Of a stretch of DNA of 39,706 nt, positions 123-39,332 are shown one piece after another. Location of the stretch: IMG/VR virus record IMGVR_UViG_3300046488_000043, positions 1 to 39,706 of that record. The stretch is one strand, 5' to 3'. The position numbers were made by a program, and so were the translations under genes. The notes under the pieces were generated by a model. It was not told the origin of the DNA, searched no databases, and worked only from the letters and a program-made list of their open reading frames with translations. This stretch comes from a virus. Position 1 is the first letter of the stretch. The number at the start of each line of letters is the position of its first letter.

Positions 123-606
123 CTTTGGCAAGTGGTGAGGTGCACTTAGGCGTATCAATGCCCATTGGTGTTGAGTGATCACGATCAATGCCACGAGCCT
201 CACTTAATACATTGTTCAATGAAACCGCACTTGCGGTTTCATTCCTTGTTGTCTCTTCCACGCCTAATCTCTTCTGAATAGCCTTACCAATATCTTGTGC
301 TTTTGGAAAGCCCGATGAATAAAGCCACATTAGTTGATCGCGTATTTCAAAGCCTGCTAACTCAACACTATAAGCAAGTTTGTGATATGTGCGTGCTGCA
401 CTGAATGCAAGTAGATAACCACCGGGTTTCAATACTCGTAAACATTCTTTGTATAGTTCTACTGTGCCAGTATGTGAGTCCCATTCTTTACCTAAAAAGT
501 CGATACCATATGGTGGATCTGTAATAATAGAGTCAAAGTGATTATCGGGGTAAGTTTTGAGAGTGATGAGATTATCACCCAAGTTGAGTTTATATTTTGT
601 ATTCAT
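1..606 (-). CDS. DNA methyltransferase paralogue, beta class (N-terminal part only)
   Basis: The gene runs off the left edge, so only about 202 N-terminal residues are visible. ATG is at 606-604, preceded by an AAAGGA ribosome-binding site. It carries the catalytic DPPYG motif near residue 30, followed by WDSHTG and LRVLKPGGY, as in N6-adenine/N4-cytosine methyltransferases whose motif IV precedes motif I. It should methylate a short DNA motif, perhaps protecting phage DNA. Its N-terminal two-thirds resembles but is clearly diverged from the methyltransferase at 37569-39332. Its last 122 visible bases are identical to 38706-38827, which include the start of the insertion that carries the HNH gene there. 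The AdoMet-binding motif and C-terminus are not visible. Family assignment is firm; sequence specificity is unknown. Confidence 0.85.
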   Translation of the reverse strand, partial: MNTKYKLNLGDNLITLKTYPDNHFDSIITDPPYGIDFLGKEWDSHTGTVELYKECLRVLKPGGYLLAFSAARTYHKLAYSVELAGFEIRDQLMWLYSSGFPKAQDIGKAIQKRLGVEETTRNETASAVSLNNVLSEARGIDRDHSTPMGIDTPKCTSPLAKEWEGFKTALKPAMEPVVLARKSCGVERTLISNSVDETTLQM

Positions 607-631
607 TTGTTCCTTTGTAGCAATACATAAT

Positions 632-639
632 TATTTATC
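632..639 (-). promoter_or_regulatory. T4-late-like promoter box for methyltransferase at 606
   Basis: GATAAATA on the minus strand, about 25 bases before the start codon. It lies just after a terminator, so the methyltransferase appears to have its own start of transcription. Confidence 0.5.
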
Positions 640-640
640 A

Positions 641-677
641 CAAAAAAGTCCCACAAAGCATAGGGCGATGTGGGACT
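641..677 (-). terminator. Rho-independent terminator of a small transcript
   Basis: A perfect 9-bp stem, AGTCCCACA paired with TGTGGGACT (647-655 with 669-677), is followed on the minus strand by six T. No gene lies between it and the promoter at 716-745, so it would end a roughly 70-nt RNA. Confidence 0.8.
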
Positions 678-709: not shown

Positions 710-715
710 AACTAT

Positions 716-745
716 AATATACTATATTTAGTATATATTTGTCAA
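716..745 (-). promoter_or_regulatory. Sigma-70-like promoter of small RNA A
   Basis: TTGACA at 745-740, an 18-bp spacer, then TATATT at 721-716 on the minus strand. It is a full match to the bacterial -35 element, unlike the T4-late-like boxes elsewhere, suggesting use by unmodified host polymerase. Confidence 0.55.
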
Positions 746-747
746 CC

Positions 748-795: not shown

Positions 796-800
796 AAAGA

Positions 801-808
801 TATTTAGC
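801..808 (-). promoter_or_regulatory. T4-late-like promoter box (variant) before small RNA B
   Basis: GCTAAATA on the minus strand. The same variant occurs before 8850 and 23612. No gene follows before the next terminator. Confidence 0.35.
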
Positions 809-814
809 ATTCAT

Positions 815-1258: not shown

Positions 1259-1286
1259 GTAGCACTTTGCTACATAGATATTTATC
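1259..1286 (-). promoter_or_regulatory. T4-late-like promoter plus 5-prime hairpin for the secreted protein
   Basis: GATAAATA (1286-1279), five bases, then GTAGCA-N3-TGCTAC (1273-1259) on the minus strand. The hairpin would stand at the very start of the mRNA. The same module precedes the genes starting at 33072, 33483 and 35219. Confidence 0.6.
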
Positions 1287-1343: not shown

Positions 1344-1348
1344 TCTAT

Positions 1349-8879: not shown

Positions 8880-8909
8880 ATGAGATGCATCTCATATTAT
8901 ATATTTAGC
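8880..8909 (-). promoter_or_regulatory. Promoter box plus palindromic hairpin
   Basis: GCTAAATA at 8909-8902, overlapping the stop codon of the upstream gene, followed by the 16-base palindrome ATGAGATGCATCTCAT (8880-8895) and an AAGGAAT ribosome-binding site for the gene starting at 8850. Confidence 0.5.
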
Positions 8910-9553: not shown

Positions 9554-9561
9554 TATTTATA
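9554..9561 (-). promoter_or_regulatory. T4-late-like promoter box
   Basis: Perfect TATAAATA on the minus strand, about 20 bases before the start of the gene at 9536. Confidence 0.6.
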
Positions 9562-11842: not shown

Positions 11843-14800
11843 TTACCTTAACAAACACTGATAATAAATCTCGCGTGTATCAGCAGTAATAGAACATGGG
11901 GTTGAGCTACTATTAGTAGAAATTACTAATGTGCCAGAAGCAATAATCTGTATTGTATATGCAACACCGGGTGATAAATTTGCTGATAGGAATAACTGGT
12001 TTAGTCCTCCACCACCATTCACATTTACTACATTACTGATATTAACTGTTCCACTATTAACACCACCGTTATTAAATGCCGATGCTGTTGAATTACCCAC
12101 AACTGCACCGGAACCATTGGGCACGATTGCAGTTGAGCCGATTACAGCACTATCGGAATTTCTGATAATAACTAATTGCCAATTTGGTGTGCCCACCACA
12201 TTAAGTGTCGATGTTAATGTAACTGTTCCATTATTAATACCACCATTACTAAATGATGATACTGCAACAGCACCATTTACTCGTGTGTTGGTTGATAAGT
12301 TAGCCGATATAAATGTCGGAAATGGTCCTGTTAATCCTGTTGGATTAGGTGCAGTAACAACTAATGATGCAACTATATACGGTGATATTGTTGTCGATCC
12401 AACACCACTACTACTTGCTAATGTTACACTTGCATTGCTAACAAAAAAGCGTGTATCACTAATGCATCCGTTTGCAAGTTTAATACTATTTACGGTTAAA
12501 TCATTAATCTGTGCATTCGTAACTGCTAAATTCTGAATAGCAGCAGTTGCAATAGTGGCACTACCCATTTGTGCAGCATTTGTAATAACCGCACTACCTG
12601 TTACTAATGATGGTGCACTAATAGTTCCTGGAAATATCTGTGTTGTCCCATCAATGATAATCTTACCATTAGCTGGGCTAATAGATGTTCCACCGGTATA
12701 CACTGCTAATATACGCTTTTGTGTTCCTGTTGCAGTTGTGATAGATGTAGTTGTGTGTAATGTGGTTGGGGCGGTTGTTTCGTCCCAATATACATATAAT
12801 GAACCACTTGTCCATGCTGCATTACCTGCACTTACAGAATATGTTGCTGGTGATCCGGTTCCCCCTGTCTTCTGTGCAGTGCCGGCACTCCAACTAATAC
12901 TATTTGTTGATGGTGTATTAGGTGTAAATGTGAATCCAGGAAATACATAATCATTGAATGTAACAGGTAATGCAGTTGCACCGCTTGTTTGTGTCGAATA
13001 ACTTAATCCTGTATTACCAAAACCATCATAACAAGCAACTTTAACATAGTATGTTGTGCCTGCCACTGCAACTGGATAACTAATCGAACTGTTTGGGCCT
13101 GTGTAAAAACATGTTCCAGTTCCCGCAACCGATCCGCTTGGTGTAAATCCGCTTGTAGTGCTAATATGGTATTCATACCCAACAACATCCACATCTGCAC
13201 TTTGTCTTACTGCATTAATGAATAGATAATCATATCCAACAGTAGTAGTAATGTTAGGTGCACCTGGTGTTGGATTGCTGAATGTCGAATTATCAACAGT
13301 GCCTACTACATTATATACATTTACTGCTGCAACTTCGATGCCCGGTGTTCTAAATGCAGTTGTATTATCGGTTGTATTCTTAAAATAATCATATACATAT
13401 GTTGCAACTAATGAACTATCTGTTCGTTTAAGTGTTGCACCATTATATGCACGCACACGATAATTGCTGAACATATTGCTCTTAGTAAAATCAGCACCTG
13501 CACCATCCACACAAGTCCACACCAATTCCAAATCGCTTTGGTTAAATGTTGTTCCGGTTGTTCCTTTAACATATAATGCAGTTACTGTGGGTGGTGCTGC
13601 TGGTGTAAATGTGTTTGTAGCAGTTGCCGATGGCACACCTAAATTACTATATGCGGTAATCTTAATAATAATACTATTGAGCGGTGTTCCTTGTCCATTA
13701 TCCTTCACATTATTTTGGAATGTATATTGATAGGTAGGCTGATATACCTGTTCACCACGAACCTTAGTTGCACCATTATAAATATCAACCTCATACCACC
13801 CGAATGTTGGGTCAGTTGTAAAATCAGTTGATGCACCATTTAAGCAAGTCCACACAACATCTAAATCTAATGTTGAGAATATTGTGCCGCCACCACGAAC
13901 CTGTAATGCACTAATAGATGCACCACTTAATGCACTCCATGTTCCTGTAACGGCACTGCCGGTCTTATTATAGGTATCTCGTGCATATACATTAACTTTA
14001 ATACTATTTCTGGGGCCGCCATCTCTTACATTATCATCATAGCTATAATCGAAGAACGGATTAAGTGTATAAAATGTCTTAAATAATGCACCACCCGGTA
14101 CGACCAATTCGACTTTATAATCTTGCAATATAAAACCTACAGTATTTGCCGGCGGTGTCCATGATGTGTGTAATGAACTTGTTCCTGTAAAAGTTAAACC
14201 GGTTGGAACACCGATACCGCTACCAGTGCCCGGTGACATGTCTAATGTATAAGAACTATTAAGTGTAGGTGAAGTTACCCCCACTGCATTTATAGCATTG
14301 ATATAGAATGTATAAACGCCACCCAGCGTTGCATCAATCCGTGTCGATGGAATAACACAAGTTTGTGTCATTGTAATACCATTATCTTTCTTCCAACTTA
14401 CTCTATATGAAGTTGCACTCTGATCTGCTGGTGCAGTCCAACTTAGCATCAAATAACGCTTAACAATACTATTAGGGTCAGTCGATGTTTGTGGGGTTAC
14501 AATTAAATTAGTCGGCGAATTAATCGAAATAAGTTTAGGTTGTGCCCAATACACAGGTGATGGTAGGATAACTCCAGTCTCAATGCGTGCATATTTTGTC
14601 GGATCATATTGAACACCACGAATTGTGTAGATAAGTGGTTGAATTTCCACCATCGATATACAACGGAACGGGCGTGGACTAATAGCACCACTGATAACAA
14701 ATGCTGTTCCTGCACCACCCGAAATAGATGCACTAATGCTAATAGTTGCAGTTGTTCCTGCACCAGTTGTGATGGTTCTTGTTTCAATTGAAGAACCATC

Positions 14801-16927
14801 AGATGATATACAATCAATTGTCCATGTGCCAGTTGTAATAGTAACAGGTTCATCTAATACTAAAGTTGTGCCACTTGCACTAATTAATCGGCCTTCCTGT
14901 GTTACCTGTGCATAATCCACATCCATTACATTGAACACTTCGCCCGGTTCAAAGTCTGCATATTGTGGGCCGACCTGACATTCAACAAATTCTGTATTAT
15001 TAATACTTGTATCAACTACCCATCTTGCATCTCTGCGTGCCTGTCCTTCAGTAGTTGCACCATATGATACAATTTCAGAGGTAGTATAACCATAGCGTGT
15101 AATATTTGCACTACTTGCAGTCTCTGTAATTGTCTTTGGTAAGCAATTGTCTGTAATATCTGAATAAGTTGCATTACACGCAGTAAAGCGTGTGCGACCA
15201 TCGGATGCACTATAAGTGAACATACCATTTAACACTTGAGAATTACCTAAAATTCGTGTGTAGGTAGTAGGTCTATCCTGACTTAAACGGATATATCCAT
15301 TATGAATATAAAGCATTGCACGGAATGTAGATGCAATTGCCTGTAATGTCTTCCATGCATCATCGCGAACCATTAATTGTGCATCGAATGTAAATCTATT
15401 TTCGAATGTGCCGGTGCCCTTACCATCATCGACTAACGCATCACAATATACTGCTGCATTATAGAAACTAAATACATCAATCTGGCTTGTATCAATATAA
15501 CTACCCAATCCATATCGACTATTCTTAATAAGCTCTAACAATAACCAAACCGGATTATTAGTCCATACTTTAGTTGATGCAAATGCACCACCCCATGATC
15601 CAGTATATACCTTAGTCGATGCATTATAATTAGATGGAACAGAACAAAGAATCCCACCCCAGTCTGCTGCCATTGTTGGGATTTGGTTATTTGTTGAATC
15701 GGCGCCAACAGTTAATGCATAAAGTGCTCGGTCATTATATGGTAATGCAACTTCCTGAATATTGGTAAAAGATTTTAGTTTAAGTGCATTAATAAGATAA
15801 TTAGATGAACTATCTGCTGTATTTCTAACAACCTTAAATTCCCATCCACCTGTTCCCGGATTTTGTAATCTATATGCAACCTGGAATGGACCACCACTCA
15901 TTTCTGTGATAGTAGGACTCACTATTGCAGCCCATGTTCCGGCAGTTACTCTGGTATACAAAGTGAAGTTTACACTTGTTCCGCTTGCATCACCGGTGCT
16001 TGCATCAATTTGTTGTAATCCTGCATTAAATTCTAATGTAACACGCACAGCATTAATACCACTTGCAACTGTTTCTGTAACAGGTGATACTGTTGTTACT
16101 GCAATATTAATAATCGACTCTGCTTCGACTGCACTAAATCCTGTGATAACAGATTGTGATGGCTGTCCCACTCTTGTATCAACAGTAATATTTGTATAAT
16201 TATAAGATAAATCGCTATTCTGTAATGGTGTATTATCGAAGAAGATGGATTGTGCTGGATGACTTGTATTCCATGGCCCAAATGTTTCGCCTTCACTAAC
16301 TAAATTCAATACACGGGCTATCTGATTAGTTCTTACTGTATTGGGTGCTTGGACAGCAGCACGCGGGCTACTCTTACCGCCACCGCCACCATTGTGAACC
16401 CGAATCTTATCAGCAACATAAGCATGAACATCAGCAACTTCGAGATTGTAAACATAGTCGTATTCTACTCCTGCATCAATGCTTAGTATGGTTGTTTTTT
16501 CGCCATATTCTGTGTATAAAACATCACCGACTGCCAATTCGGATGCCAATGCAAACCCTTTGTCTGCATTAACCGACTGTTTACTTGGTGTTAAAATATA
16601 ATGGTTACCGGTTACATTAAGAATACCTTTTTCATGCGTAATAATAAGTAATGGTGATGTATATCCAACTTCGCCGAATGTGTGAATATATGTTGCTGTA
16701 ACTTGCTTAATGCAAACTTCGCCTGGCATATTTAATTCATCTGGTTCTAATGAACTAATATCGAATGCATATACTTCATCGCCAACAATTAATGTTTCAA
16801 TTGATTTATAACCAGTCGGCGTATTAATCTTAACACCTGCTGGAAAACATCCTCCACCACCTCCACCTTCTCCATAAATAGACTGAAGTGATTCACCAAA
16901 TAGACCGTTTGTATCATTAATATTCAT
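11843..16927 (-). CDS. J-like tail tip/host-specificity protein with Hint domain
   Basis: The product has 1694 residues. Its position after I, and the run of J-type domains beginning ARVLNLVSEGETFGPW near residue 204, identify the lambda J family: the central tail-tip protein that contacts the host receptor. Fibronectin-type segments follow (for example around 870-900), then a C-terminal domain with AAIQNLAVTNAQINDLTVNS. Residues 27-179 are an inserted Hint (intein-like) domain: GGGGGG|CFPAGVKINT at the start, TGNH (106-109, block B), and VHN|GGGGG at the end. The residue after Asn179 is Gly, not Cys, Ser or Thr, so normal intein splicing is not expected. The ATG overlaps the I stop (ATGA). 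The poly-Gly tract on both sides is the usual flexible linker of J proteins. Confidence 0.9.
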   Translation of the reverse strand: MNINDTNGLFGESLQSIYGEGGGGGGCFPAGVKINTPTGYKSIETLIVGDEVYAFDISSLEPDELNMPGEVCIKQVTATYIHTFGEVGYTSPLLIITHEKGILNVTGNHYILTPSKQSVNADKGFALASELAVGDVLYTEYGEKTTILSIDAGVEYDYVYNLEVADVHAYVADKIRVHNGGGGGKSSPRAAVQAPNTVRTNQIARVLNLVSEGETFGPWNTSHPAQSIFFDNTPLQNSDLSYNYTNITVDTRVGQPSQSVITGFSAVEAESIINIAVTTVSPVTETVASGINAVRVTLEFNAGLQQIDASTGDASGTSVNFTLYTRVTAGTWAAIVSPTITEMSGGPFQVAYRLQNPGTGGWEFKVVRNTADSSSNYLINALKLKSFTNIQEVALPYNDRALYALTVGADSTNNQIPTMAADWGGILCSVPSNYNASTKVYTGSWGGAFASTKVWTNNPVWLLLELIKNSRYGLGSYIDTSQIDVFSFYNAAVYCDALVDDGKGTGTFENRFTFDAQLMVRDDAWKTLQAIASTFRAMLYIHNGYIRLSQDRPTTYTRILGNSQVLNGMFTYSASDGRTRFTACNATYSDITDNCLPKTITETASSANITRYGYTTSEIVSYGATTEGQARRDARWVVDTSINNTEFVECQVGPQYADFEPGEVFNVMDVDYAQVTQEGRLISASGTTLVLDEPVTITTGTWTIDCISSDGSSIETRTITTGAGTTATISISASISGGAGTAFVISGAISPRPFRCISMVEIQPLIYTIRGVQYDPTKYARIETGVILPSPVYWAQPKLISINSPTNLIVTPQTSTDPNSIVKRYLMLSWTAPADQSATSYRVSWKKDNGITMTQTCVIPSTRIDATLGGVYTFYINAINAVGVTSPTLNSSYTLDMSPGTGSGIGVPTGLTFTGTSSLHTSWTPPANTVGFILQDYKVELVVPGGALFKTFYTLNPFFDYSYDDNVRDGGPRNSIKVNVYARDTYNKTGSAVTGTWSALSGASISALQVRGGGTIFSTLDLDVVWTCLNGASTDFTTDPTFGWYEVDIYNGATKVRGEQVYQPTYQYTFQNNVKDNGQGTPLNSIIIKITAYSNLGVPSATATNTFTPAAPPTVTALYVKGTTGTTFNQSDLELVWTCVDGAGADFTKSNMFSNYRVRAYNGATLKRTDSSLVATYVYDYFKNTTDNTTAFRTPGIEVAAVNVYNVVGTVDNSTFSNPTPGAPNITTTVGYDYLFINAVRQSADVDVVGYEYHISTTSGFTPSGSVAGTGTCFYTGPNSSISYPVAVAGTTYYVKVACYDGFGNTGLSYSTQTSGATALPVTFNDYVFPGFTFTPNTPSTNSISWSAGTAQKTGGTGSPATYSVSAGNAAWTSGSLYVYWDETTAPTTLHTTTSITTATGTQKRILAVYTGGTSISPANGKIIIDGTTQIFPGTISAPSLVTGSAVITNAAQMGSATIATAAIQNLAVTNAQINDLTVNSIKLANGCISDTRFFVSNASVTLASSSGVGSTTISPYIVASLVVTAPNPTGLTGPFPTFISANLSTNTRVNGAVAVSSFSNGGINNGTVTLTSTLNVVGTPNWQLVIIRNSDSAVIGSTAIVPNGSGAVVGNSTASAFNNGGVNSGTVNISNVVNVNGGGGLNQLFLSANLSPGVAYTIQIIASGTLVISTNSSSTPCSITADTREIYYQCLLR

Positions 16928-19285: not shown

Positions 19286-21787
19286 TTATCCTATTTGCAT
19301 ACTTACTTTATTATTACTTCCACCTGGGCGATTTGCCTTAGCCATATTATCATTAAAGCGTTGATCAATCATGGTTACAATTGTTCTTGCAAGTTTCTGT
19401 TGATCTTCTGGCTTACTATTATCGCCCTGTGAAGTTATTGTGATATTATTCACAATGTTCATTGAACCTGTGCTACCTGAACTTAGTTGATTAGTTGGGG
19501 TAATAGTGCCTGCTCCTTTGGGTGTCCATCGTTCTGGGCCACGCTCCCCAACTAAAATAGATTGTCCATTGTTACCATTTGCACCAATTACTGCACCTTC
19601 AGCAGCCATTACGACAGATGCATCAACTGCTGCTCCTGCACCAGAACTTGCTGCACCACCCCCGCCAAATAAACCGCTAAATAGCCCACCAATACCCCCG
19701 CTACTATTCATTGCAGCCTTCATTGCATTAATCATTGGGGTTACAACCATGATTTGGAATATAAGTTTAGCAATCTGATCTAACATACTACTAACCATAC
19801 CAGCAAATCCATTCTTACCTGTTGTGATAAGTGAATATAATGTATCACTAAAGTTTTGTAGACCGGTTGTGGTAATCTTCTCTAAACCCTTTTCCATTGT
19901 GCCTAATCCAGTCACAAACCCATCTATACCATTGTTCAACCAATCTTTGTTTGCATCGATTAATGTCTGTGTTGATTTGTGAACCTTAGCAATAGCATCT
20001 GCTTGTTTCTGATAAGCAGCAGTTTCGGCATCGATTGTCCAAATATTATCTTGCTTGAGTTTAGTAATTGTATCTAATGTTGCTTTTTCAATCTTTCTAA
20101 TCTCTGCTTCTTCTTTAATTGCTTCTACGGCCATGTGCTTATGATGAATTTCGTCAATAATCGATTGATTATAACTAAATGCAGTATCATTGAGTTTCTT
20201 AGTAAGTTCAATCGATACTAAATTCTGTCTTGTTTGCTCGTCGATTGCCTTAGATTTTTCTTTAATAGCAGCAATTTCTTTTGCAATGCGTTCTAATTCC
20301 GCAGTAGAATATGTGGCCTTTAATGTGCCACCGTCTTTTGCAATCTTATTATTCTCTTCTTCAATCTTTGCTTTCTCTTTTGCAAATTCAATATCGAGAC
20401 GCTTTAATTGTTCGCCCGCCTTTTGTTCTTCATTTAAGTGCTGTTCTCTCTCCAATACCTTCTCTAAAGTAGTAAGATATTTAAGATACATATCGGTTGC
20501 TTCACCGACCGCACCCTTAACTACTACTTGTTTGGTGTCGCCACCGCCATTGCTCTTATTACCAGATTTATTTGCTGCAACAGTATGACCATCATGTGCT
20601 TCCCATAGATGTGCAATACTTGTGCCAGTATCTTCTGCACTTTTCTTAATGTCTGCGAAATATTCAACCCACACATTCTTAGCACCAGTTAAATCTCTAT
20701 TTGCTAACATCATGAGCGAAGCAGCAACAGCACCTATTGCTTTACCGACAGCAGTCATGATAAGATCTAATGATTGAAGCAATGTCATTAATACTTTAAT
20801 AGCAACCATAAGTAACCATGTTGCTCCTTCAATTGCACCAAATACACCCGCAACTAATCCGCCTGATTCGTATGAACGATTAAACCACTGAACTAAGTTT
20901 GTAAAGGCTGGAACAACAATTTCAACGAGCTTAGAACCAACATCGGACATAATACCGTGCATTCTTGTATTTGCTTTTGTATTCTCTTCAACTGCGTGAA
21001 TACTTTCTGTGCTAATACCAATCCCTTCAGCAGTTAATTCATTAGATGTTTTTTGTGCATCATTAATTGCTTCTAATGCTGGTAGATTCTTTTCCCAACC
21101 CTTACCCAATACCTGTGTCATGGCAGCAAAATCGGCTGTTGATTGTGTGCCATGCTCCCATGAGTGAATTGCTTCCTCTGTTAATTCGGTTGCGGATTTT
21201 AGGACACCATTGTGATCTTTAACTTCTAATCCTAATTGATGGAATGCAGCACCCGTTCCTTTAAGTGGATCATTTGCATTCCATGCTGCTTTAGCAACTT
21301 TAGTATATACTCCCTCGACTGCCTCTAATGAAGAACCAGCCTTTTGTGCTGCCATTTGCATTAACATTGCCTGAGTGGCACTATAACCAAATGCAACACC
21401 TAAATTATTAGCCTGTTCAATCTTTTCGGCCCATTCAAATGCCATTGCAATACCGACCGCACCTAATACAACTGCAAATGCAGCGGCAGCGGCAGTCCCA
21501 GCAAGCAATGCTGACCCAATTTCACCTAAGCCACTAATTGTTTTAACATTAAGGGTGGCCAAATGCTCCATTGATTCTAACATCTTACCAATGGTATTAT
21601 TGAATCTACTGATATGTTCTACTGCTTCACCGACAGCACCACCCATGCCTGCAAAGATAGTTTCCAGATGTTCGCCAGCCTCAGCAGCATGGTCAGTTTC
21701 CTTACCCATCTTTTTAACTGCCTCAGTGCCTTTATCTACCTGACTGTGGTCTACCTTAAATAGTGCATCAAAAATTGCATTTGCCAT
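19286..21787 (-). CDS. Tape measure protein
   Basis: The product has 833 residues, the longest tail-lumen protein, setting tail length. Sequence is largely alpha-helical with heptad-like stretches and hydrophobic segments at about 92-115 (Ala-rich) and 325-360. The last third has a charged coiled-coil region, then a C-terminus with SSGGIGGLFSGLFGGGGAA and ILVGERGPERWTPKGAG, the latter like the GExGPE motif at the end of lambda H. It follows the two overlapping chaperone frames, as always in this family, and precedes M. Confidence 0.9.
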   Translation of the reverse strand: MANAIFDALFKVDHSQVDKGTEAVKKMGKETDHAAEAGEHLETIFAGMGGAVGEAVEHISRFNNTIGKMLESMEHLATLNVKTISGLGEIGSALLAGTAAAAAFAVVLGAVGIAMAFEWAEKIEQANNLGVAFGYSATQAMLMQMAAQKAGSSLEAVEGVYTKVAKAAWNANDPLKGTGAAFHQLGLEVKDHNGVLKSATELTEEAIHSWEHGTQSTADFAAMTQVLGKGWEKNLPALEAINDAQKTSNELTAEGIGISTESIHAVEENTKANTRMHGIMSDVGSKLVEIVVPAFTNLVQWFNRSYESGGLVAGVFGAIEGATWLLMVAIKVLMTLLQSLDLIMTAVGKAIGAVAASLMMLANRDLTGAKNVWVEYFADIKKSAEDTGTSIAHLWEAHDGHTVAANKSGNKSNGGGDTKQVVVKGAVGEATDMYLKYLTTLEKVLEREQHLNEEQKAGEQLKRLDIEFAKEKAKIEEENNKIAKDGGTLKATYSTAELERIAKEIAAIKEKSKAIDEQTRQNLVSIELTKKLNDTAFSYNQSIIDEIHHKHMAVEAIKEEAEIRKIEKATLDTITKLKQDNIWTIDAETAAYQKQADAIAKVHKSTQTLIDANKDWLNNGIDGFVTGLGTMEKGLEKITTTGLQNFSDTLYSLITTGKNGFAGMVSSMLDQIAKLIFQIMVVTPMINAMKAAMNSSGGIGGLFSGLFGGGGAASSGAGAAVDASVVMAAEGAVIGANGNNGQSILVGERGPERWTPKGAGTITPTNQLSSGSTGSMNIVNNITITSQGDNSKPEDQQKLARTIVTMIDQRFNDNMAKANRPGGSNNKVSMQIG

Positions 21788-22634: not shown

Positions 22635-22642
22635 TATTTATC
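22635..22642 (-). promoter_or_regulatory. T4-late-like promoter box for G-T-H operon
   Basis: GATAAATA on the minus strand, directly after a terminator T-run and about 34 bases before the start of G. Confidence 0.6.
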
Positions 22643-23665: not shown

Positions 23666-23690
23666 TATTTAGCATACTCATATATTTAGC
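23666..23690 (-). promoter_or_regulatory. Two promoter boxes upstream of tail tube gene
   Basis: GCTAAATA at 23690-23683 (inside the end of the HNH gene) and again at 23673-23666 on the minus strand. Confidence 0.5.
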
Positions 23691-26138: not shown

Positions 26139-26146
26139 TATTTATA
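26139..26146 (-). promoter_or_regulatory. T4-late-like promoter box for connector operon
   Basis: Perfect TATAAATA right after the coat-gene terminator; it would drive the adaptor and the connector genes downstream. Confidence 0.65.
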
Positions 26147-26195: not shown

Positions 26196-27410
26196 TTAAC
26201 CTAATAGCAATGCAGCAAACTCTGGCTTGTTAGCCAACGAACCCCATGCAGCACCAACTTCATAGTGAACCTGACGATATACTTTGTATTCTGCAACCTG
26301 ATAAGAGATTCCAGAAACCTCATCGTATACTAATTCAACAGCAGCAGCAGCATCACCACCGGCTGGCATAATTGGTGCACGAGTTGCAAGCATAAGTGCA
26401 GTTGGGTGCAATACCATGTTACCCTTATAGTTGTTACCAACAGTCATTGTAACTGCATCAGCAAGTGTTTGTTGCAAACCAGGTGCAGCAATAGTCATAA
26501 CTTGACCGGCAGCAGTAACACCAGAAACAACAACATATACATTTGCATCACCAGCAAAAGTAACAATGTCACCAGCAACCACTGTGCCAGAACCTGTCTT
26601 CAACTTAATTGCAGTTTCGCCAACAGCATAAGCAGTTCCACCAACAGAACCAGTGCCATCAGATGCATATGTAGCAGCACCAGTGCCCTTTGTGTGTGCA
26701 TTCTTATCAATTTGTGCGGACTTGTGGAACTTTAAGTTAAGCACTTCATTGATGATACCCTTGCGTAAGAATGCATCTGTTCCAGCTTCATTAGCCTTCC
26801 AAAGCGAACTTTGTTTACCTGTCATATTTGCATATGCAGCAAAGCCCATGATAATTCTACGGTCATCTTCTGGTGCACCATTGTTATCTAAAATAAGATG
26901 TGCATTAGCAAAGTCGCTAAAATCACCAACTGTGTTGAATGGGCTTGTGCCTGCTGCACCTGTAGCACGAGATGAACCACCATTAAGCATTGTAGCAACC
27001 AAAGATGCTTCGATTGTGTTGTCCAATGTTCTGAATGCTTGTGTAAACTGATCACGGAAGATAACTTCGAAGTTACTACCAACAGCGCGTTGTTCTTCAC
27101 CTGTCCACTGAATTGGTGCAGCATATGAATTAGCAATAACCAAATCTTTGTAAAGGATTGTCTGACCACCTGTGTTAGGCACAACATTGGATGGTGCAAT
27201 TGCAGTCAATCCAACTGGCTGTGTTACTGGTGAACGAACAGTTTGTCCAACTGCTGCCTGTGCTTCAGATGCATCACGAGTTGCTGCTGTGATCAAACCA
27301 ATTTGTTCACGAGCGACACGGTCGCGTGCTTCATAGATAATCGGGATAAGAGCCGATAGTGTTGTGGCACCTGCACCTGCATAGTTTGTGCCGCCCTGAA
27401 TATTTGCCAT
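26196..27410 (-). CDS. Major capsid protein, P22 coat-like
   Basis: The product has 404 residues. The C-terminal part with NMVLHPTALMLATRAPIMP, YDEVSGISYQVAEYKVYRQVHYEV and the N-terminal EARDRVAREQIGLI match the P22 coat (gp5) family, an HK97-fold coat protein with an inserted beta domain (here around residues 230-320, Gly/Thr/Val-rich). It assembles with the scaffold at 28163-28765 and the portal. Three promoter boxes lie upstream and a strong terminator follows, as expected for the most abundant virion protein. Confidence 0.9.
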   Translation of the reverse strand: MANIQGGTNYAGAGATTLSALIPIIYEARDRVAREQIGLITAATRDASEAQAAVGQTVRSPVTQPVGLTAIAPSNVVPNTGGQTILYKDLVIANSYAAPIQWTGEEQRAVGSNFEVIFRDQFTQAFRTLDNTIEASLVATMLNGGSSRATGAAGTSPFNTVGDFSDFANAHLILDNNGAPEDDRRIIMGFAAYANMTGKQSSLWKANEAGTDAFLRKGIINEVLNLKFHKSAQIDKNAHTKGTGAATYASDGTGSVGGTAYAVGETAIKLKTGSGTVVAGDIVTFAGDANVYVVVSGVTAAGQVMTIAAPGLQQTLADAVTMTVGNNYKGNMVLHPTALMLATRAPIMPAGGDAAAAVELVYDEVSGISYQVAEYKVYRQVHYEVGAAWGSLANKPEFAALLLG

Positions 27411-27442: not shown

Positions 27443-27529
27443 TATTTATATTTCGAAATATGTATACCTACAATGTTATTTATATTCTGTAAGAATTTAA
27501 CAGATATAATGATTGCAATAGTATTTATG
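27443..27529 (-). promoter_or_regulatory. Triple T4-late-like promoter upstream of coat gene
   Basis: Three boxes on the minus strand: CATAAATA 27529-27522, TATAAATA 27484-27477 and TATAAATA 27450-27443. Then follows a CTTAAGGAG ribosome-binding site. The 119-base gap otherwise holds a small palindrome (ATATTTCGAAATAT) and no gene. Confidence 0.65.
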
Positions 27530-28105: not shown

Positions 28106-28118
28106 AAGTTTATCCAAT

Positions 28119-28146: not shown

Positions 28147-28154
28147 TATTTATC
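28147..28154 (-). promoter_or_regulatory. T4-late-like promoter box before endonuclease gene
   Basis: GATAAATA on the minus strand, immediately upstream of the hairpin with T-run. Confidence 0.5.
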
Positions 28155-28826: not shown

Positions 28827-28834
28827 TATTTATC
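28827..28834 (-). promoter_or_regulatory. T4-late-like promoter box for scaffold
   Basis: GATAAATA on the minus strand just before the end of the portal gene's 3-prime flank, with a hairpin between it and the scaffold start codon. Confidence 0.55.
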
Positions 28835-28837: not shown

Positions 28838-30478
28838 TTAAGCATTAGGAATGCCATTGGTTGATGTTCCTGTCTGTGGTTCTGGTGCCTTGGGTGGTGC
28901 AACTGCTGATGGTAATCCTACATTAGTCTTAGCATTAATCTCCATTACTTCTGCAATCTTAGCATCTGCTTCTTGTTCTGTTAAACCTTTTTCTTCCATA
29001 AAGTAATCTTTAATAGAAGCACGATTATTATCAATACGCAATGTCCAAATATTCTCTTGTTCCATTAGATTGACTGGTAGATTAGGTGGTGCAAATTCTG
29101 CTTGTAAATATCCATCAGTAAGTTGTCCTGGATAGATAACCTTTGTAATCTCATAGAAACGACGCAAACTCGATTGCATCATCTGTGCACGCATATCACG
29201 CAATTGAAGATTGTTTAATTCTTCCACAACTAATTGGAATCCACTGTTTGCTTTACCGCCACCACCATAGTTTAAGTTGACAGACCAATCATTAGCAACT
29301 GCTTGCACATAATTAGTGATGATAGTATCTAATGCTGCTAAATCTGTGTCTGGACCAACAAACTCTGCTTTACCAGCAGTTCCACCACCATCTAATCCTA
29401 ATTTAGCAATACTACCTAATCCACCCAACATAGATTGTTTGCGTGTTTGATAGAACGGAATATCATTATAGATTGCACCACCTGGGCTATTACCTAATTG
29501 TGCTGCTGGAATAAGTTGATCACCTGCATTATTATCATCATTAATAAGATCACCAGTAATAAACAAAGTCTTTTGCTTTTGGAATGCAATAGCAAACTCT
29601 GTATCAGTTAATGCTAAATTTACAACTTCTTGTAATGCAATAAGATCTTCAGAAGGGCGAACCCAAAAGTCTTTGCGTGGCTTACGAGTATCATAGAAGA
29701 ATGATGCTGGAACTATTCCATAAGGATTAGGTTCACGACTAATAACAGTTTCAATATTTTGTTGATTACTACTATAACGCGAATCATTTTGTTCATTTAC
29801 TTGAATTTCAATAATTTCTTCTGGTGTCCATACACAATAAGACCAATTCTTTGGGCGATTGCTATAACCTTTATCTAAATCATAGGAAATATCGTCTAAA
29901 ATATAAGCAAGTTCTGTAATCTTTGTTCGTGCTTCATTCATCTTTACAACAGTATTACCATAATGTAAGATTGTGAATAATAGTTGATCACCACGAGTAT
30001 AATCAAAGCGATATTGACCATTCTGTGTAGTGGTTCCATCAGGAACAGATAATTGTTGTAAGACGATAGTTGAGCCACATAAGCGTGTATATACATCAAT
30101 ATTTTGCATTACTTCATTCCAGTCTGCATTCTCTAACATTTCTTGATAAACTGGGTCTACCACAGGTTCATTATTGACACCTGTAATAATATTAAGCTGT
30201 GGTGGCTTATTAAATAGTAAACCACTTTTATCTACAATAGATTTAATAACATTTCTTACACGCGGCACAATACCGCGGTGCTTCCATTCTTTGCGTTTAC
30301 CAAACCCATTCATTGCACCATCTAACATAGAGATAACATAATCACGCTGATCACCTTCGTAGTAATCAACCAACTTTTGCATATCTATTGCTTCATCATC
30401 AAAAAAATCATCATAATCGATGGTTTTGCCTGGAATAAGATTATCGTTGTCATCGTCTTGCATATTAGGTGTTGTCAT
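28838..30478 (-). CDS. Portal protein
   Basis: The product has 546 residues. The segments VDYYEGDQRDYVIS, RVRNVIKSIVDKSGLLFNKPP, LCGSTIVLQQLS, VVNLALTDTEFAIAFQKQK and the helical end with QEADAKIAEVMEIN are those of phage portal proteins of the SPP1/HK97-type fold. Twelve copies form the DNA entry channel at one capsid vertex. It follows the large terminase, as usual, and has its own CATAAATA box. Confidence 0.85.
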   Translation of the reverse strand: MTTPNMQDDDNDNLIPGKTIDYDDFFDDEAIDMQKLVDYYEGDQRDYVISMLDGAMNGFGKRKEWKHRGIVPRVRNVIKSIVDKSGLLFNKPPQLNIITGVNNEPVVDPVYQEMLENADWNEVMQNIDVYTRLCGSTIVLQQLSVPDGTTTQNGQYRFDYTRGDQLLFTILHYGNTVVKMNEARTKITELAYILDDISYDLDKGYSNRPKNWSYCVWTPEEIIEIQVNEQNDSRYSSNQQNIETVISREPNPYGIVPASFFYDTRKPRKDFWVRPSEDLIALQEVVNLALTDTEFAIAFQKQKTLFITGDLINDDNNAGDQLIPAAQLGNSPGGAIYNDIPFYQTRKQSMLGGLGSIAKLGLDGGGTAGKAEFVGPDTDLAALDTIITNYVQAVANDWSVNLNYGGGGKANSGFQLVVEELNNLQLRDMRAQMMQSSLRRFYEITKVIYPGQLTDGYLQAEFAPPNLPVNLMEQENIWTLRIDNNRASIKDYFMEEKGLTEQEADAKIAEVMEINAKTNVGLPSAVAPPKAPEPQTGTSTNGIPNA

Positions 30479-30497: not shown

Positions 30498-30505
30498 TAT
30501 TTATG
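30498..30505 (-). promoter_or_regulatory. T4-late-like promoter box for portal
   Basis: CATAAATA on the minus strand, filling the gap between the terminase stop and the portal ribosome-binding site (AAAGGAA). Confidence 0.55.
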
Positions 30506-31801
30506 TTATCTTAATACTGTAATCTTCGCGGCGTGTTTCGTTGGCGCCCAGACATAGGATATAAAATACCCTAATGCATCTGGGTGGTGGTCAATATCGC
30601 CGGCCTTATCGGGCTTGCCATCGATGTAACCCTGTTGTTCTATACATGCAGTTAGTCTGGGGCAAGTAACATCATTGATAAACAATGTTCTGCTGTTTAG
30701 TGAGTTACAAAACTTTAAGTTTACTGCACCTACTCTATCTGCAATAGGAATATGCCCCTTATAGTGGTGCACATTATCATTACCAAATGCACTCTTTAAT
30801 GCCATTACATCGGTCTTAGACATAGTGGTAAAATCACTACGCTGAATATCACCACTCCCATCAACAAAACATTTAATGGCTCTATTGGGGTATCTGCGTT
30901 TAATCTCTCTAATAAGATGTTCTGTATTCTGACAGCCATATATTTCATCTACAATGTGCGGTATTTGGCCAATAATAATGCCAACAGTAGTTGCCATTTT
31001 GCCCACATTAAAGTCGATACCTATGCTTAATGGTGCATTTGGATGTTTAGCAATTGTTTCTGTTGAGCGATTATGCACCCTATCATATGCATAATATACA
31101 TTACCTTCAGCAAAATTAATAAATTCATTACCTATATATGCAGCAAATTGTTTAGCAGTTAATTGTTGTCGCATCATTTCTATATATCCATCATCGATAA
31201 ACGGATTATCATCGACATAAATGTCAATCATCTCTCTGTCAGCACCTGCTTGCTCAACAAAGAATTTATAAGCCCATTGGAACCCTTCTTTAGTTGAAGT
31301 AACACATCCTTGCATCACATTACCCGATGTTAAACGCGATACCATTTTTTGCCATGCTTCTTTACATAGATCATATCCGCTTGTATCAAATTCATCTGCT
31401 ATAAACCATGCTACAGAGAAACCCCTAATACGATTCCAATTTTCACTACTCCTTAGGTAGATAACAACATCGCCTTCTAAGAAATGTAATTCAACTCGTG
31501 CATTGGTTGCCGATGAGCGTATTTCAAACCAGCATTTACCGGGTGTCTTTTTATCTGCCCACCCTAATAGAGATAACACTTCTTCCATAGTGGGTATAAG
31601 AACACCTGCAAGCATAGATGCAGTTGGTTCTAACATAAGTCCATTATATCCGATATTAAGCGAAGCTAAGTGAATTGCTTTTAAGCAAGCAACAAATGTT
31701 TTTCCACTTCTGTATGAACCCATAAGACCTAAGAACCTCACTTTGTCATTAAAGAGAAATTCTATCTGTGGTTTCATTAATTCAATATTAGGTATTGTCA
31801 T
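30506..31801 (-). CDS. Terminase large subunit
   Basis: The product has 431 residues from ATG 31801 (MTIPNIELMKPQ); earlier in-frame starts at 31807 and 31813 overlap the small-subunit gene further. The ATPase half has Walker A GSYRSGKT (28-35) and Walker B VAWFIADEFD (131-140, Asp137-Glu138). The nuclease half starts at SIGIDFNVGKMATTVG and ends with DIDHHPDALGYFISY. It pumps DNA into the prohead and cuts it. All key residues look intact. Confidence 0.92.
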   Translation of the reverse strand: MTIPNIELMKPQIEFLFNDKVRFLGLMGSYRSGKTFVACLKAIHLASLNIGYNGLMLEPTASMLAGVLIPTMEEVLSLLGWADKKTPGKCWFEIRSSATNARVELHFLEGDVVIYLRSSENWNRIRGFSVAWFIADEFDTSGYDLCKEAWQKMVSRLTSGNVMQGCVTSTKEGFQWAYKFFVEQAGADREMIDIYVDDNPFIDDGYIEMMRQQLTAKQFAAYIGNEFINFAEGNVYYAYDRVHNRSTETIAKHPNAPLSIGIDFNVGKMATTVGIIIGQIPHIVDEIYGCQNTEHLIREIKRRYPNRAIKCFVDGSGDIQRSDFTTMSKTDVMALKSAFGNDNVHHYKGHIPIADRVGAVNLKFCNSLNSRTLFINDVTCPRLTACIEQQGYIDGKPDKAGDIDHHPDALGYFISYVWAPTKHAAKITVLR

Positions 31802-32204
31802 CTTCATCCACAATGGGTTTCTTTTTAGATATTACAGAAACAGTGAATCCACTATTACTAACACTAATATCATCGGATGTTAATTCATTGCTAAAATTAG
31901 ATTCTGCTTTAAGCATTCTTGCAAGTCTATCACGCTCTGCTTGCCCATATTTAAGATCTTGTGCCACAGATAAAGATAACTGATAGAATTGGGTAAGTCC
32001 GCGTCTGCGACCTTTCTCCATCGCTGCTGTAATTTCGGGATATTCTAATTTCTTTGTGCTGAATACTGCTGCTGCAATACCTAAACCTGCAGCAATTGTT
32101 TGGTTATTAAAACCCATTGAAGCATCATCTTCGATCTGTTTTAATATTGTTGGTGTGGGTATCCATTTTGGACCACCGCGTGGTTTACTAATTTTTTCTG
32201 ACAT
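31788..32204 (-). CDS. Terminase small subunit
   Basis: The product has 138 residues with a helix-turn-helix-like start (LKQIEDDASMGFNNQTIAAGLGIAAAVF), a basic helix (EKGRRRGLTQFYQ) and an acidic tail. It overlaps the large-subunit gene directly downstream, which together with the fold pattern gives the assignment. It should recognise the packaging site, which has not been located. A TATAAATA box and hairpin precede it. Confidence 0.8.
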   Translation of the reverse strand: MSEKISKPRGGPKWIPTPTILKQIEDDASMGFNNQTIAAGLGIAAAVFSTKKLEYPEITAAMEKGRRRGLTQFYQLSLSVAQDLKYGQAERDRLARMLKAESNFSNELTSDDISVSNSGFTVSVISKKKPIVDEDDNT

Positions 32205-32229: not shown

Positions 32230-32266
32230 CCACTAACTCCATAGTGGCTGCTTTATGTTATTTATA
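32230..32266 (-). promoter_or_regulatory. T4-late-like promoter plus hairpin for terminase genes
   Basis: Perfect TATAAATA (32266-32259), then CCACTA with TAGTGG (32230-32235 with 32242-32247) on the minus strand. A GGAGTTAACAA ribosome-binding region precedes the start at 32204. Confidence 0.6.
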
Positions 32267-33093: not shown

Positions 33094-33119
33094 GTAGCAT
33101 TCTGCTACATGTATTTATA
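33094..33119 (-). promoter_or_regulatory. T4-late-like promoter plus 5-prime hairpin
   Basis: TATAAATA (33119-33112) followed three bases later by GTAGCA-N3-TGCTAC (33108-33094) on the minus strand. Confidence 0.65.
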
Positions 33120-33225: not shown

Positions 33226-33483
33226 TTATAGCACCTCAGTTTTCACAATGTATGTCTTGAATAATAATATATTCTTTGTGTCGGATACTTTAATCAATAA
33301 TGTGTATGTGTCAAATGCAATAATCTGTCCAGCGACTTTTTGTCCATCATATAAATCAAAAACTAAGGTTGCCTTATCATAAACTGCCTGCTTAAAAAAT
33401 TTGGATTGAACATTATTCATATGTGTGGGATTCGTTGTCCCTTTCTTCTGTTCTGTTAATGTAATGTTATTGATAGTGTTCAT
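33226..33483 (-). CDS. Sm-like protein resembling Hfq
   Basis: The product has 85 residues. Residues 26-58 align without a gap to residues 8-40 of E. coli Hfq. Gln26 matches Gln8, Phe29 matches Phe11, Gly47 Gly29, Gly52 Gly34, and Phe57-Asp58 Phe39-Asp40 in the Sm1 motif DGQKVAGQIIAFD. A shorter Sm2-like strand LLFKTYIV (73-80) replaces VYKHAIS, keeping the lysine but not the histidine. The rim arginines of Hfq (RRER) are replaced by VYDK. It is probably a ring-forming RNA-binding protein; the target RNAs are unknown. A promoter plus hairpin module precedes it. I place it by pattern, not by a search. Confidence 0.65.
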   Translation of the reverse strand: MNTINNITLTEQKKGTTNPTHMNNVQSKFFKQAVYDKATLVFDLYDGQKVAGQIIAFDTYTLLIKVSDTKNILLFKTYIVKTEVL

Positions 33484-33499: not shown

Positions 33500-33524
33500 T
33501 AGCATATTGCTAATGTTATTTATC
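33500..33524 (-). promoter_or_regulatory. Promoter plus 5-prime hairpin of the Hfq-like gene
   Basis: GATAAATA (33524-33517), then TAGCA-N3-TGCTA (33512-33500) and an AAAGGATAA ribosome-binding site, all on the minus strand. Confidence 0.6.
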
Positions 33525-35244: not shown

Positions 35245-35272
35245 GTAGCATCTTGCTACAACTATATTTATA
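35245..35272 (-). promoter_or_regulatory. T4-late-like promoter plus 5-prime hairpin of lysis cluster
   Basis: TATAAATA (35272-35265), then GTAGCA-N3-TGCTAC (35259-35245) on the minus strand. It would drive the holin candidate, spanins and small genes. Confidence 0.65.
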
Positions 35273-35957: not shown

Positions 35958-36020
35958 TTTAATTGTAATTTGGACTTGTTATATACATGGGTACTGTTAC
36001 TACTGCACCATAATATTATA
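35958..36020. repeat. Dispersed repeat, copy 2
   Basis: 36 bases identical to 18816-18851, plus 19 bases matching 18861-18879 with one mismatch. It spans the stop of the polymerase-like gene and ends at the start of the 63-aa gene. A further 14-base piece (GTTATATACATGGG) recurs at 36108-36121. Confidence 0.9.
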
Positions 36021-37406: not shown

Positions 37407-37425
37407 TGATAATCCTTTTACTGTT

Positions 37426-37456
37426 TTGTGTTACCTCTAACACAAGTGTATTTATC
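37426..37456 (-). promoter_or_regulatory. Promoter box plus 5-prime hairpin for polymerase-like gene
   Basis: GATAAATA (37456-37449), then a perfect 8-bp stem TTGTGTTA with TAACACAA (37426-37433 with 37438-37445) on the minus strand and an AAAAGGAT ribosome-binding site. Confidence 0.6.
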
Positions 37457-37568
37457 CTTTTTGTCGTAAGACAGCCCCTTATCGTTAAATAAGAGGCTGA
37501 ATAGGTGTTTTTGTTTATACAATAAAAGAAACTACAAGCATTGCACTTGCAATGTTATTTATCCTTTT
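37457..37568 (-). other. Non-coding segment with two hairpins between methyltransferase and polymerase-like gene
   Basis: The segment starts at a GATAAATA box (37563-37556), followed by a stem CATTGC with GCAATG (37539-37544 with 37549-37554). A second, strong 11-bp stem lies at 37472-37482 with 37489-37499. No T-run follows on the minus strand. It may be a small RNA or a processed leader; nothing coding is seen. Confidence 0.45.
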
Positions 37569-39332
37569 TTATTCACCAAACAACTCTTTTGATAACCCAC
37601 TATTATTCCACGACTCAATCCTTGTTGCTGCTATTGCCACATACTTTGGATCTAACTCACAACCGGTAAAGTGGTGTCCTAACTTGACTGCTGCCATACC
37701 TGTTGAACCAGACCCCATAAATGGATCTAAGACTTTACGCTGTAGTTCAGGTGTCGATGGTGGTGTGACTAACTTGATAAGATATTCCATTAGTGCCACT
37801 GGCTTCACGGTTGGGTGGTTGTTGCCGATTTGTGGTTTAGTGGAGTGATCTGCTTGTGTTCCGCGTGTTTGATCATCTTCACTGCATATGCGTTGATCAC
37901 CAATGTCAAACCCACTATGTCTCTCTTTGCGGCTAACCTTTGGACAATAGAAATACTTCTGATAACCTTCCGCAACTTCACCGATGACATTCGATGGATA
38001 GCGACCGGCATTGTGTGGTTCGATAATAGGTGTATCCTCATCTGCTGGAACATAACCTTGATGATCGCAAAACTTTGATATGTTACCTGCTGATTGTTGT
38101 GGCTTAAATGCACCTTGTTCACCCCACGGCACTCTCGTAGCGTCAATGTTCATAGCACCGAGACCGTTCTTTAATACATTATCAATCGTTGAGCCTTTGT
38201 ATGGTTTGCGTGCCATAACGATGGGCTCGTGTGCTGGTTTAGCGGTTGCGGCCAGGGAGAGTGTGTGCTTCTTGTTTGTAGCATTCACGAGAGCAATACA
38301 TTCCGTGTGGGTGTCTTTCAACTTCAACAGTGCGTCTTTCAAACTCTTTAGCACAGACTCGGCAGCCGATTGTTTGCCATCTTGACTTATCAGGGCCGGG
38401 ATGATGCTCTCTTGTATGCTCTTCGATAGCGAGTATCTCAAGGTTGTCAATAGCGTTGTTATGCTTGTTGCCGTCTCTGTGGTGGACATGCTCTCTACTT
38501 GTAAGAGGGCGACCGATGTGCTGCTCCATAACTGAACGATGTTCAAGATCGTTTCTTCTATCTCCAATAATGCGGACATATTCGCCGCTTGTGTCGCGTC
38601 TTGCTGGTGTTGACTGAGCATCACCATTGCACTTTGTTGAGCAGTATTTCTTTCCGAACCTGAGTATTGGGTTACCACATTGTTGACATATGAGCATAGC
38701 GCCTCCATTTGTAATGTTGTCTCATCGACACTATTACTTATCAAAGTGCGCTCAACCCCGCAACTTTTACGAGCCAATACTACGGGCTCCATTGCGGGTT
38801 TCAATGCTGTCTTAAATCCTTCCCATTGTTTTGCGAGCGGCGATGTGCAGACTGGTTGTGTAATGGTTGAATGTCTTTCGAGTCCTAATGTCTCATCGGT
38901 ATCATTTGCATTACTTTCTCTATTCTTAGATTCGTTTTGAATGCCACCATACTGTTTTAATAGGCGTACATCTTCTTGTTCAACACCCAATCGCTTCTGT
39001 ATCGCCTTACCAATATCCTGTGCCTTTGGAAAGCCTGAACTGTAAAGCCACATTAGTTGATCGCGTATTTCAAAGCCTGCCAATTCAATATTAGATGCTA
39101 ATTGATGATATGTTCTTGCTGCACTGAATGCAAGCATATATCCACCTGGCTTCAATACTCTAAGACATTCTTTATATAGTTCTAATGTGCCAGTGTGTTG
39201 ATCCCAATCCTTACCTAAGAATGCTATTCCATATGGTGGATCAGTAATGATTGAGTCGAAAGTGTTATCGGGATAGTTCTTTAGTGTGGCGAGATTATCG
39301 CCGAGGTGTAGGTTATATGGATTTGTCATCAT
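37569..39332 (-). CDS. DNA methyltransferase, beta class, carrying an overprinted HNH gene
   Basis: The product has 587 residues. The catalytic motif DPPYG is at residues 31-35, the AdoMet motif LDPFMGSGSTGMAA at 535-548, preceded by NHPTVKP (505-511): an N6-adenine or N4-cytosine methyltransferase of the beta order. Residues about 178-190 (LKPAMEPVVLARK) and 364-376 (AKPAHEPIVMARK) are a duplicated segment. It brackets about 185 extra residues of low-complexity helical sequence, whose DNA encodes an HNH endonuclease in another frame (38239-38697). Without the insert the protein would be about 400 residues, the usual size. Two possible starts (39332, 39329) are adjacent. Confidence 0.88.
   Translation of the reverse strand: MMTNPYNLHLGDNLATLKNYPDNTFDSIITDPPYGIAFLGKDWDQHTGTLELYKECLRVLKPGGYMLAFSAARTYHQLASNIELAGFEIRDQLMWLYSSGFPKAQDIGKAIQKRLGVEQEDVRLLKQYGGIQNESKNRESNANDTDETLGLERHSTITQPVCTSPLAKQWEGFKTALKPAMEPVVLARKSCGVERTLISNSVDETTLQMEALCSYVNNVVTQYSGSERNTAQQSAMVMLSQHQQDATQAANMSALLEIEETILNIVQLWSSTSVALLQVESMSTTETATSITTLLTTLRYSLSKSIQESIIPALISQDGKQSAAESVLKSLKDALLKLKDTHTECIALVNATNKKHTLSLAATAKPAHEPIVMARKPYKGSTIDNVLKNGLGAMNIDATRVPWGEQGAFKPQQSAGNISKFCDHQGYVPADEDTPIIEPHNAGRYPSNVIGEVAEGYQKYFYCPKVSRKERHSGFDIGDQRICSEDDQTRGTQADHSTKPQIGNNHPTVKPVALMEYLIKLVTPPSTPELQRKVLDPFMGSGSTGMAAVKLGHHFTGCELDPKYVAIAATRIESWNNSGLSKELFGE
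38239..38697 (-). CDS. HNH endonuclease overprinted within methyltransferase gene
   Basis: The product has 152 residues, read in the -1 frame of the methyltransferase gene on the same strand. A zinc finger (Cys4, Cys7, Cys19, Cys23) is followed by the HNH core SREHVHHRDGNKHNNAIDNL (68-87: His72-His73, Asn81/Asn85, then His94) and a second zinc finger (Cys112, Cys115, Cys135, Cys139). A strong GGAGG ribosome-binding site lies four bases before the ATG. It is very likely a homing endonuclease. The methyltransferase frame stays open through the whole gene. Confidence 0.9.
   Translation of the reverse strand: MLICQQCGNPILRFGKKYCSTKCNGDAQSTPARRDTSGEYVRIIGDRRNDLEHRSVMEQHIGRPLTSREHVHHRDGNKHNNAIDNLEILAIEEHTREHHPGPDKSRWQTIGCRVCAKEFERRTVEVERHPHGMYCSRECYKQEAHTLPGRNR
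38706..38827. repeat. 122-bp perfect direct repeat, copy 2
   Basis: Second copy of the sequence at 1-122. It covers the methyltransferase codons just before the embedded HNH gene and reaches the first base of that gene's GGAGG ribosome-binding site. Confidence 0.95.

Follow-up and report, generated by a model that had tools for sequence, protein, structure and literature searches.

The virus record IMGVR_UViG_3300046488_000043 raises the question of why a phage with lambda-type tail genes carries, ahead of its genes, short boxes resembling the late promoters of phage T4, which are served by gp55, gp33 and the sliding clamp gp45. The window considered here is the whole IMG/VR stretch of 39,706 b, which is open at both ends and has nearly all of its genes on the minus strand. 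It contains a siphovirus gene set: terminase, portal, P22-type coat, head-tail adaptor, tape measure, lambda-type tail tip and J. T4-type head and contractile tail genes are absent, the coat is of the P22 type and the tail genes are lambda-type; the phage is therefore not T4-like (Straboviridae/Kyanoviridae). Judged from sequence, the boxes are probably genuine T4-type late promoters read by a sigma factor of the gp55 class. This assignment is based on their enrichment, strand and position, the missing -35 element, conservation in relatives and the gp55 gene found in one of these, L065.

Late promoter-like boxes in the window

Automatic gene calling delimited 23 oriented gaps in the window, 15 of which hold at least one box. 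Twenty N[A/C]TAAATA boxes occur in the intergenic gaps on the coding strand and two on the antisense strand, against 3.71 ± 1.84 boxes in dinucleotide-preserving shuffles of the gaps, none of 400 reaching 20. An earlier run gave 18 boxes against 3.5, with 10 in the largest of 100 shuffles. The first-pass annotation, which had reported about twenty coding-strand boxes ahead of genes, was borne out by these counts. All seven boxes that it named (9561, 22642, 26146, 32266, 33119, 35272 and 37456, each number being the upper coordinate of the box) are located in gaps on the minus, that is, the coding strand. The enrichment check with a background model, which it had proposed, placed the gap boxes well above shuffles, though the count over the whole window was at chance level (TATAAATA 12 versus 8.4, TAAATA 79 versus 74.9). 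Whole-window counts were accordingly dropped as evidence, and the signal consists in position and strand, not in number.

ATAAATA was the most enriched of all 7-mers when gaps were compared with coding sequence without prior choice of a motif (14 gaps versus 0.88 expected). In a motif-permutation control the window ranked 1 of 105; since shifted copies of the motif are permutations themselves, shuffles were preferred. The same gap test scored the T4 late region (12 versus 2.3), cyanophage ACG-2014d (12 versus 1.3) and jumbo phage K64-1 (16 versus 6.1), and found no excess in MED4-184 (0 versus 2.1) and KBS-S-2A (1 versus 0.4), named terminase relatives outside the family. Thus, the test detects known late promoters and can stay silent. 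A 49-kb stretch of phage MIJ3, composed mostly of small hypothetical genes, also had no excess (5 versus 11.9).

The boxes of the window stand ahead of the terminase, portal, coat and tail genes. In a pooled set of 129 boxes from 17 genomes or fragments, information is almost confined to the octamer, and the upstream composition is flat. Position -13 accepts any base, mostly G or T; position -12 is A in 81% and C in 19% of the boxes, the search pattern having admitted only these two. The A/C alternative agrees with published T4-type late promoters, the CTAAATA form having been described for the T4-type phage Aeh1 in PMC1524935 and PMC2988020. A TTGACA-like hexamer (up to one mismatch) was present at the right distance in 4 of 129 boxes versus 8 of 129 shuffled ones, so that the lack of a -35 element, named in the first-pass annotation as a T4 trait, holds. 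The distance of 10-60 bases given there is too narrow for the window, where box start and start codon lie from 33 to more than 200 nt apart; the pooled median is 48 nt. The statement that boxes commonly follow terminators was generous: this is clear only at some boxes (26146 and 22642; 639 and 37456 by eye).

With the +1 position set 13 nt after the box start from T4 spacing, leader hairpins begin at the predicted +1 at boxes 1286, 28834, 35272, 37456 and 37563. Such hairpins at predicted 5' ends probably shield late messages. Folding is not a general property of the leaders, as 8 of the 20 fold better than mononucleotide shuffles at z < -1.5 and the mean z is -0.73. A perfect 12/12 sigma-70 consensus promoter, TTGACA-17-TATAAT, was found at 1327-1299 (-), directly upstream of box 1286, and this tandem suggests that one gene is used both early, through sigma-70, and late.

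In the proposed mechanism, the N[A/C]TAAATA octamer, located at -13 to -6, would drive short operons of virion or lysis genes without the help of a -35 element, and the host RNA polymerase would recognise it by means of a sigma of the gp55 class. Early genes are probably transcribed with the host sigma-70, as the promoter at 1327-1299 indicates. Transcription starts at the boxes, their recognition by gp55 in the phage of the window and the origin of this gp55 are presumed.

Boxes in related phages and the gp55 gene of L065

A DNA-level search of the window against named phages gave no close match. Among named phages, the closest terminases share 35 to 37% identity with that of the window and the closest coat 47%; the portal had no match in 50,697 phage records, and single-sequence scans of viral_contigs with the window terminase and its 468-aa protein gave no relatives. 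Relatives with conserved gene order were collected by portal, terminase and coat searches. Near-duplicates and overlaps were left out (L001, L007, L009, L011, L013, L015, L016, G07, L050, L054-L057, L059-L061, L064), as were L051, L052, L066 and the weak terminase hits L018-L028. The remaining 27 stretches, window included, were subjected to 400 shuffles each.

Boxes are strong in 15 of the 27 stretches, where the count was reached in no more than 2 of 400 shuffles, and borderline in five (L047, L049, G20, G23 and G18; 7 to 29 of 400). Box-bearing stretches span 29 to 58% GC, and the hosts therefore probably differ widely. Chance boxes are rare at higher GC, yet G24 (52% GC) has 6 sense gap boxes versus 0.24 expected and none antisense, which means that the enrichment holds beyond AT-rich stretches. 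L003 uses CTAAATA, the form known from Aeh1, with 8 in gaps, none antisense and none in coding sequence. The excluded L066 (73% GC) has 3 sense and no antisense boxes overall, none of them in called gaps.

Exact 127-nt end overlaps in G11, G20 and G29 were read as closed genomes of 36.3, 33.2 and 34.4 kb. G11 (36,342 b after overlap removal) has 14 boxes versus 3.4 (0 of 400 shuffles) and G20 (33,180 b) a borderline 7 versus 3.0 (10 of 400). A family prophage (L071 / G015:C58) is present in Sapientia aquatica SA-152 on contig NZ_SMYL01000009.1, at about 107-144 kb with borders set by GC. It has 15 boxes versus 3.3 in shuffles, several of them right behind terminators by eye. No attachment-site repeats of at least 13 nt were found in the zones compared.

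L065, a 6-kb relative with a 30% identical portal, encodes a 153-aa gp55 directly after the portal. This protein matches phrog_234 (E=4e-26) and, by phmmer, T4 gp55 (E=7e-7). A AATAAATA box lies 34-38 nt ahead of the start codon of both the TerS-like gene and the portal gene. The nearest proteins belong to jumbo phages, namely MIJ3 (40%), K64-1 (40%) and the K64-1-like contig L109 (46%), and the protein branches with jumbo gp55 in the tree, on a long branch whose exact place is unsure. A portal profile run without a control on L109 gave no match.

Several results weigh against reading the boxes as gp55-dependent late promoters. Enrichment is missing in seven of the 27 stretches (L048, L065, L010, L004, L069, L070 and the closed G29). 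The boxes of L065 itself are too few for significance (2 versus 0.84; 91 of 400 shuffles). The search for gp55 and gp45 homologues, also advised in the first-pass annotation, succeeded only in part: gp55 was found in L065 and not in the other 37 of the 38 records or genomes searched, window and closed genomes included, and gp45 (phrog_223) in none of 31, mostly fragments (0/15 and 0/16). A host or helper clamp could stand in for gp45, and absence of gp55 by profile falls short of proof.

Possible sources of the late factor

The first-pass annotation had offered two accounts, a gp55-like factor outside the window and another system that converged on the same motif. The first could be extended to each phage having its own late factor, encoded in a missing part of the genome or too diverged for profiles, and so worded it is a serious candidate that falls just short of probable. 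The window is open at both ends, and a gp55 gene beyond them would be the simple answer; as L065 shows, a gp55 gene next to the portal does occur in the family. Closed relatives and the prophage, on the other hand, have boxes without a recognisable gp55. As these have no missing part, bar a gap of 99 N in the prophage, a diverged sigma or a helper phage remain for them. Divergence is conceivable in view of the short and variable gp55 and the many unknown small proteins in G11, G20 and the prophage. However, phrog_234 found L065 only, as did a nine-sequence gp55 profile (L065 itself included) that was applied unfiltered to 21 genomes or fragments, in which the next best match had E=0.87. Clustering of 18 genomes or fragments revealed no non-structural gene shared by those with boxes.

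The third option, which goes beyond these two and is a sub-case of the gp55 reading, concerns only where gp55 comes from. The phages would have no late sigma of their own and would take gp55, together with the clamp, from a co-infecting T4-type or Rak2-like jumbo phage, so that particle formation, from an integrated as from an entering genome, would be confined to cells infected by a phage of that kind. Such dependence is possible, though rather unlikely. It is consistent with the closed G11 and G20, which have boxes and no match to gp55, gp45 or sigma-70 region 2 (the latter in none of 23, both genomes among them). The Pfam names obtained from 26 of the non-structural proteins of G11 and G20, all but a few of these, were endonuclease I, HNH, methyltransferase, thymidylate synthase domain and others; none was a polymerase, helicase or primase. 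The Sapientia prophage has its boxes with no gp55 or gp45 match in either the prophage or the host genome; however, it carries a tyrosine integrase (107003-108049) and a VirE-like helicase like ordinary temperate phages, and its gap is internal. The gp55 of L065 clusters with that of jumbo phages, but L065 encodes it itself, and a very diverged sigma could escape detection in the others.

Further links to larger phages come from leaders and endonucleases. The window leader hairpin TAGCA-N3-TGCTACTT behind a box occurs at only three places in viral_contigs, one antisense inside a gene and two genuine box-hairpin leaders (L031, L032). The L032 contig (G13, 63 kb) can be recognised as part of a jumbo phage from its DNA polymerase, which is 47% identical to that of Sinorhizobium phage Phosso and 42% to that of 121Q. 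It has 16 boxes versus 2.0 in shuffles; neither gp55 nor gp45 was found in it. Five family genomes (the window, G02, G08, G20 and Sapientia) encode HNH endonucleases related to T4 mobB/mobC and to an HNH endonuclease on G13. The common hairpin is short, however, and homing endonucleases spread widely. The window lysozyme is akin to K64-1 and T4 tail lysozymes.

According to PMC5259590, the Rak2-like phage CBB encodes gp55 and has 35 sites with a TATAAATA-like late motif, but neither gp33 nor gp45 was recognised in it; CBB is thus a precedent for gp55 without a recognisable clamp or gp33. PMC2988020 describes gp33 as highly variable. Rak2-like jumbo phages (K64-1, CBB, 121Q) resemble the family in their gp55, close to that of L065, in the late motif, in the boxes of K64-1 and G13 and in the box with TAGCA/TGCTA hairpin common to the window and G13/G12. 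Unlike the family, they are of about 350 kb, with their own DNA polymerase and unrelated virion genes. The T4 system and its Aeh1 variant have the same octamer, no -35 element, the same position at virion genes and similar enrichment. The present phages differ from it as small siphoviruses with a P22-type coat and lambda-type tail, gp55 in one relative only and no gp45 found. KBS-S-2A and MED4-184, siphoviruses of about 40 kb with the nearest named terminases and related tail genes, differ from the window in lacking the box excess. The annotation of KBS-S-2A includes an RNA polymerase sigma factor of its own (L030 7779-8708).

Virophages share late promoter motifs with their giant viruses, as stated in PMC6428243. 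Like Sputnik and mavirus, members of the present family are small viruses that carry their own capsid genes together with late promoters of the type seen in a larger virus, and an integrated form is possible. Virophages are, however, eukaryotic and their dependence on the larger virus is established, whereas for the family it is only a proposal. A stronger version of helper dependence would make the widespread 33-40 kb siphovirus/prophage lineage, with its complete head and tail gene sets, a bacterial counterpart of virophages, with late genes firing only with gp55 and clamp of a T4-type or Rak2-like helper and a few members, such as L065, having taken the helper's gp55; this version is a tentative proposal and unlikely as it stands. 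Islands mobilised by jumbo phages have been reported (PMC12595487) and are a different matter from these promoters.

The second account of the first-pass annotation, convergence of a non-gp55 factor such as a host alternative sigma or a single-subunit phage RNA polymerase, is improbable. Most genomes have no gp55 match, and the 468-aa protein of the window (36000-37406, minus strand) shows polymerase-like motifs by eye and has kin in G20, G24 and G27 (21 to 23% identity in two). Neither the Sapientia prophage nor G11, both with boxes, yielded a relative of this protein, the hosts are probably diverse, and the motif, the missing -35 element and A/C at -12 all fit gp55 promoters. A Pfam search for single-subunit RNA polymerase gave no match, but its positive control was also silent, making it uninformative. 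An explanation by chance matches in AT-rich gaps, or by a leader element that acts at the RNA level in place of a promoter, would suit the whole-window counts and the hairpins behind some boxes, but is scarcely credible given the gap shuffles, the 20 to 2 strand bias, the enrichment at higher GC and in relatives and the boxes directly behind terminators.

T4-type late promoters in a lambda-tailed siphovirus, as claimed in the first-pass annotation, are well supported by box statistics, the missing -35 element, the variation at -12 and the gp55 of L065. Within the accessible literature, the gp55 late-promoter system has been described so far only for T4-related and jumbo phages; titles and beginnings of abstracts, subscription papers being outside this scope, mention no such promoters in siphoviruses or satellites. 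Boxes and one gp55 in small lambda-tailed siphoviruses and a prophage would mean that a transcription strategy has moved between phage types or that the late machinery of other phages is exploited. The latter, if true, would amount to a new form of parasitism among phages.

Box positions and neighbouring genes

Table 1. Boxes and marker genes of the window (FP, box named in the first-pass annotation)
Feature	Coordinates	Strand	Remarks
Box GATAAATA	632..639	-	Ahead of DNA methylase gene 1-606; terminator-like hairpin precedes, by eye
Box ACTAAATA	725..732	-	Gap 607-892
Box GCTAAATA	801..808	-	Gap 607-892
Box GATAAATA	1279..1286	-	Ahead of gene 893-1231; leader hairpin GTAGCA-AAG-TGCTAC from predicted +1
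Extra box GCTAAATA	8902..8909	-	Overlaps 3' end of gene 8905-9132, upstream of 8452-8850; outside the 20
Box TATAAATA	9554..9561	-	Ahead of gene 9132-9536; FP
Lambda J-like host-specificity protein	11843..16927	-	
Tail tape measure	19286..21787	-	
Box GATAAATA	22635..22642	-	Terminator-like hairpin 22665-22652, then box, then gene 22164-22601; FP
Box GCTAAATA	23666..23673	-	Ahead of tail protein gene 22686-23612
Box TATAAATA	26139..26146	-	Terminator-like hairpin 26179-26152, box, head-tail adaptor gene 25536-26117; FP
P22-type major coat protein	26196..27410	-	
Box TATAAATA	27443..27450	-	Ahead of P22-type coat gene 26196-27410; proximal of three
Box TATAAATA	27477..27484	-	Ahead of coat gene; second of three
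Box CATAAATA	27522..27529	-	Ahead of coat gene; third of three
Box GATAAATA	28147..28154	-	Ahead of homing endonuclease gene 27530-28117; hairpin after box
Box GATAAATA	28827..28834	-	Ahead of scaffold-like gene 28163-28765; leader hairpin at predicted +1
Portal	28838..30478	-	Weak match; marker for finding the family
Box CATAAATA	30498..30505	-	Ahead of portal gene 28838-30478
Large terminase	30506..31813	-	58% / 52% identity to L002 / L003
Box TATAAATA	32259..32266	-	Ahead of small-terminase-like gene 31788-32204; leader hairpin; FP
Box TATAAATA	33112..33119	-	Ahead of gene 32599-33072; hairpin GTAGCA-GAA-TGCTAC; FP
Box GATAAATA	33517..33524	-	Ahead of gene 33226-33483; hairpin TAGCA-ATA-TGCTA
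Box TATAAATA	35265..35272	-	Hairpin GTAGCA-AGA-TGCTAC from predicted +1; small ORF next (start ~35219 by eye); FP
Box GATAAATA	37449..37456	-	Ahead of gene 36000-37406; leader hairpin GTGTTA..TAACAC from predicted +1; FP
Box GATAAATA	37556..37563	-	Just after DNA methylase gene 37569-39332; leader hairpin at predicted +1

The 468-aa protein had no PHROG, Pfam or PDB match, and a PDB profile search gave nothing credible. The motifs YDxxAxxPT and LIHDGF are common to it and its kin and recall family-A polymerases by eye only. Its structure predictions, alone and with two relatives, were useless (mean pLDDT 34 and 37.5).

The leaders at L031 9816-9900 and L032 3724-3640 have a long post-box part in common, a hairpin followed by about 30 similar bases. 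This is possibly a structured RNA absent from Rfam; a search of the window and phage stretches against Rfam gave no match except one tRNA in L031. Homing endonucleases of the HNH type, akin to T4 mobB/mobC, are encoded in the window (23678-24031 and 27530-28117) and repeatedly in its relatives, a pattern suggestive of exchange with T4-type phages.

G21, G23, G24 and G27 have portal, terminase and boxes as in the window, but another tail gene set; a 310-aa protein replaces the coat, and the tail may be of another type. Two short proteins of the window (39313-39705 and 31788-32204) look HTH/small-terminase-like by eye, and the record may hold two such genes. Two DNA methylase genes of the common family phrog_67 (1-606 and 37569-39332) are located near its opposite ends.

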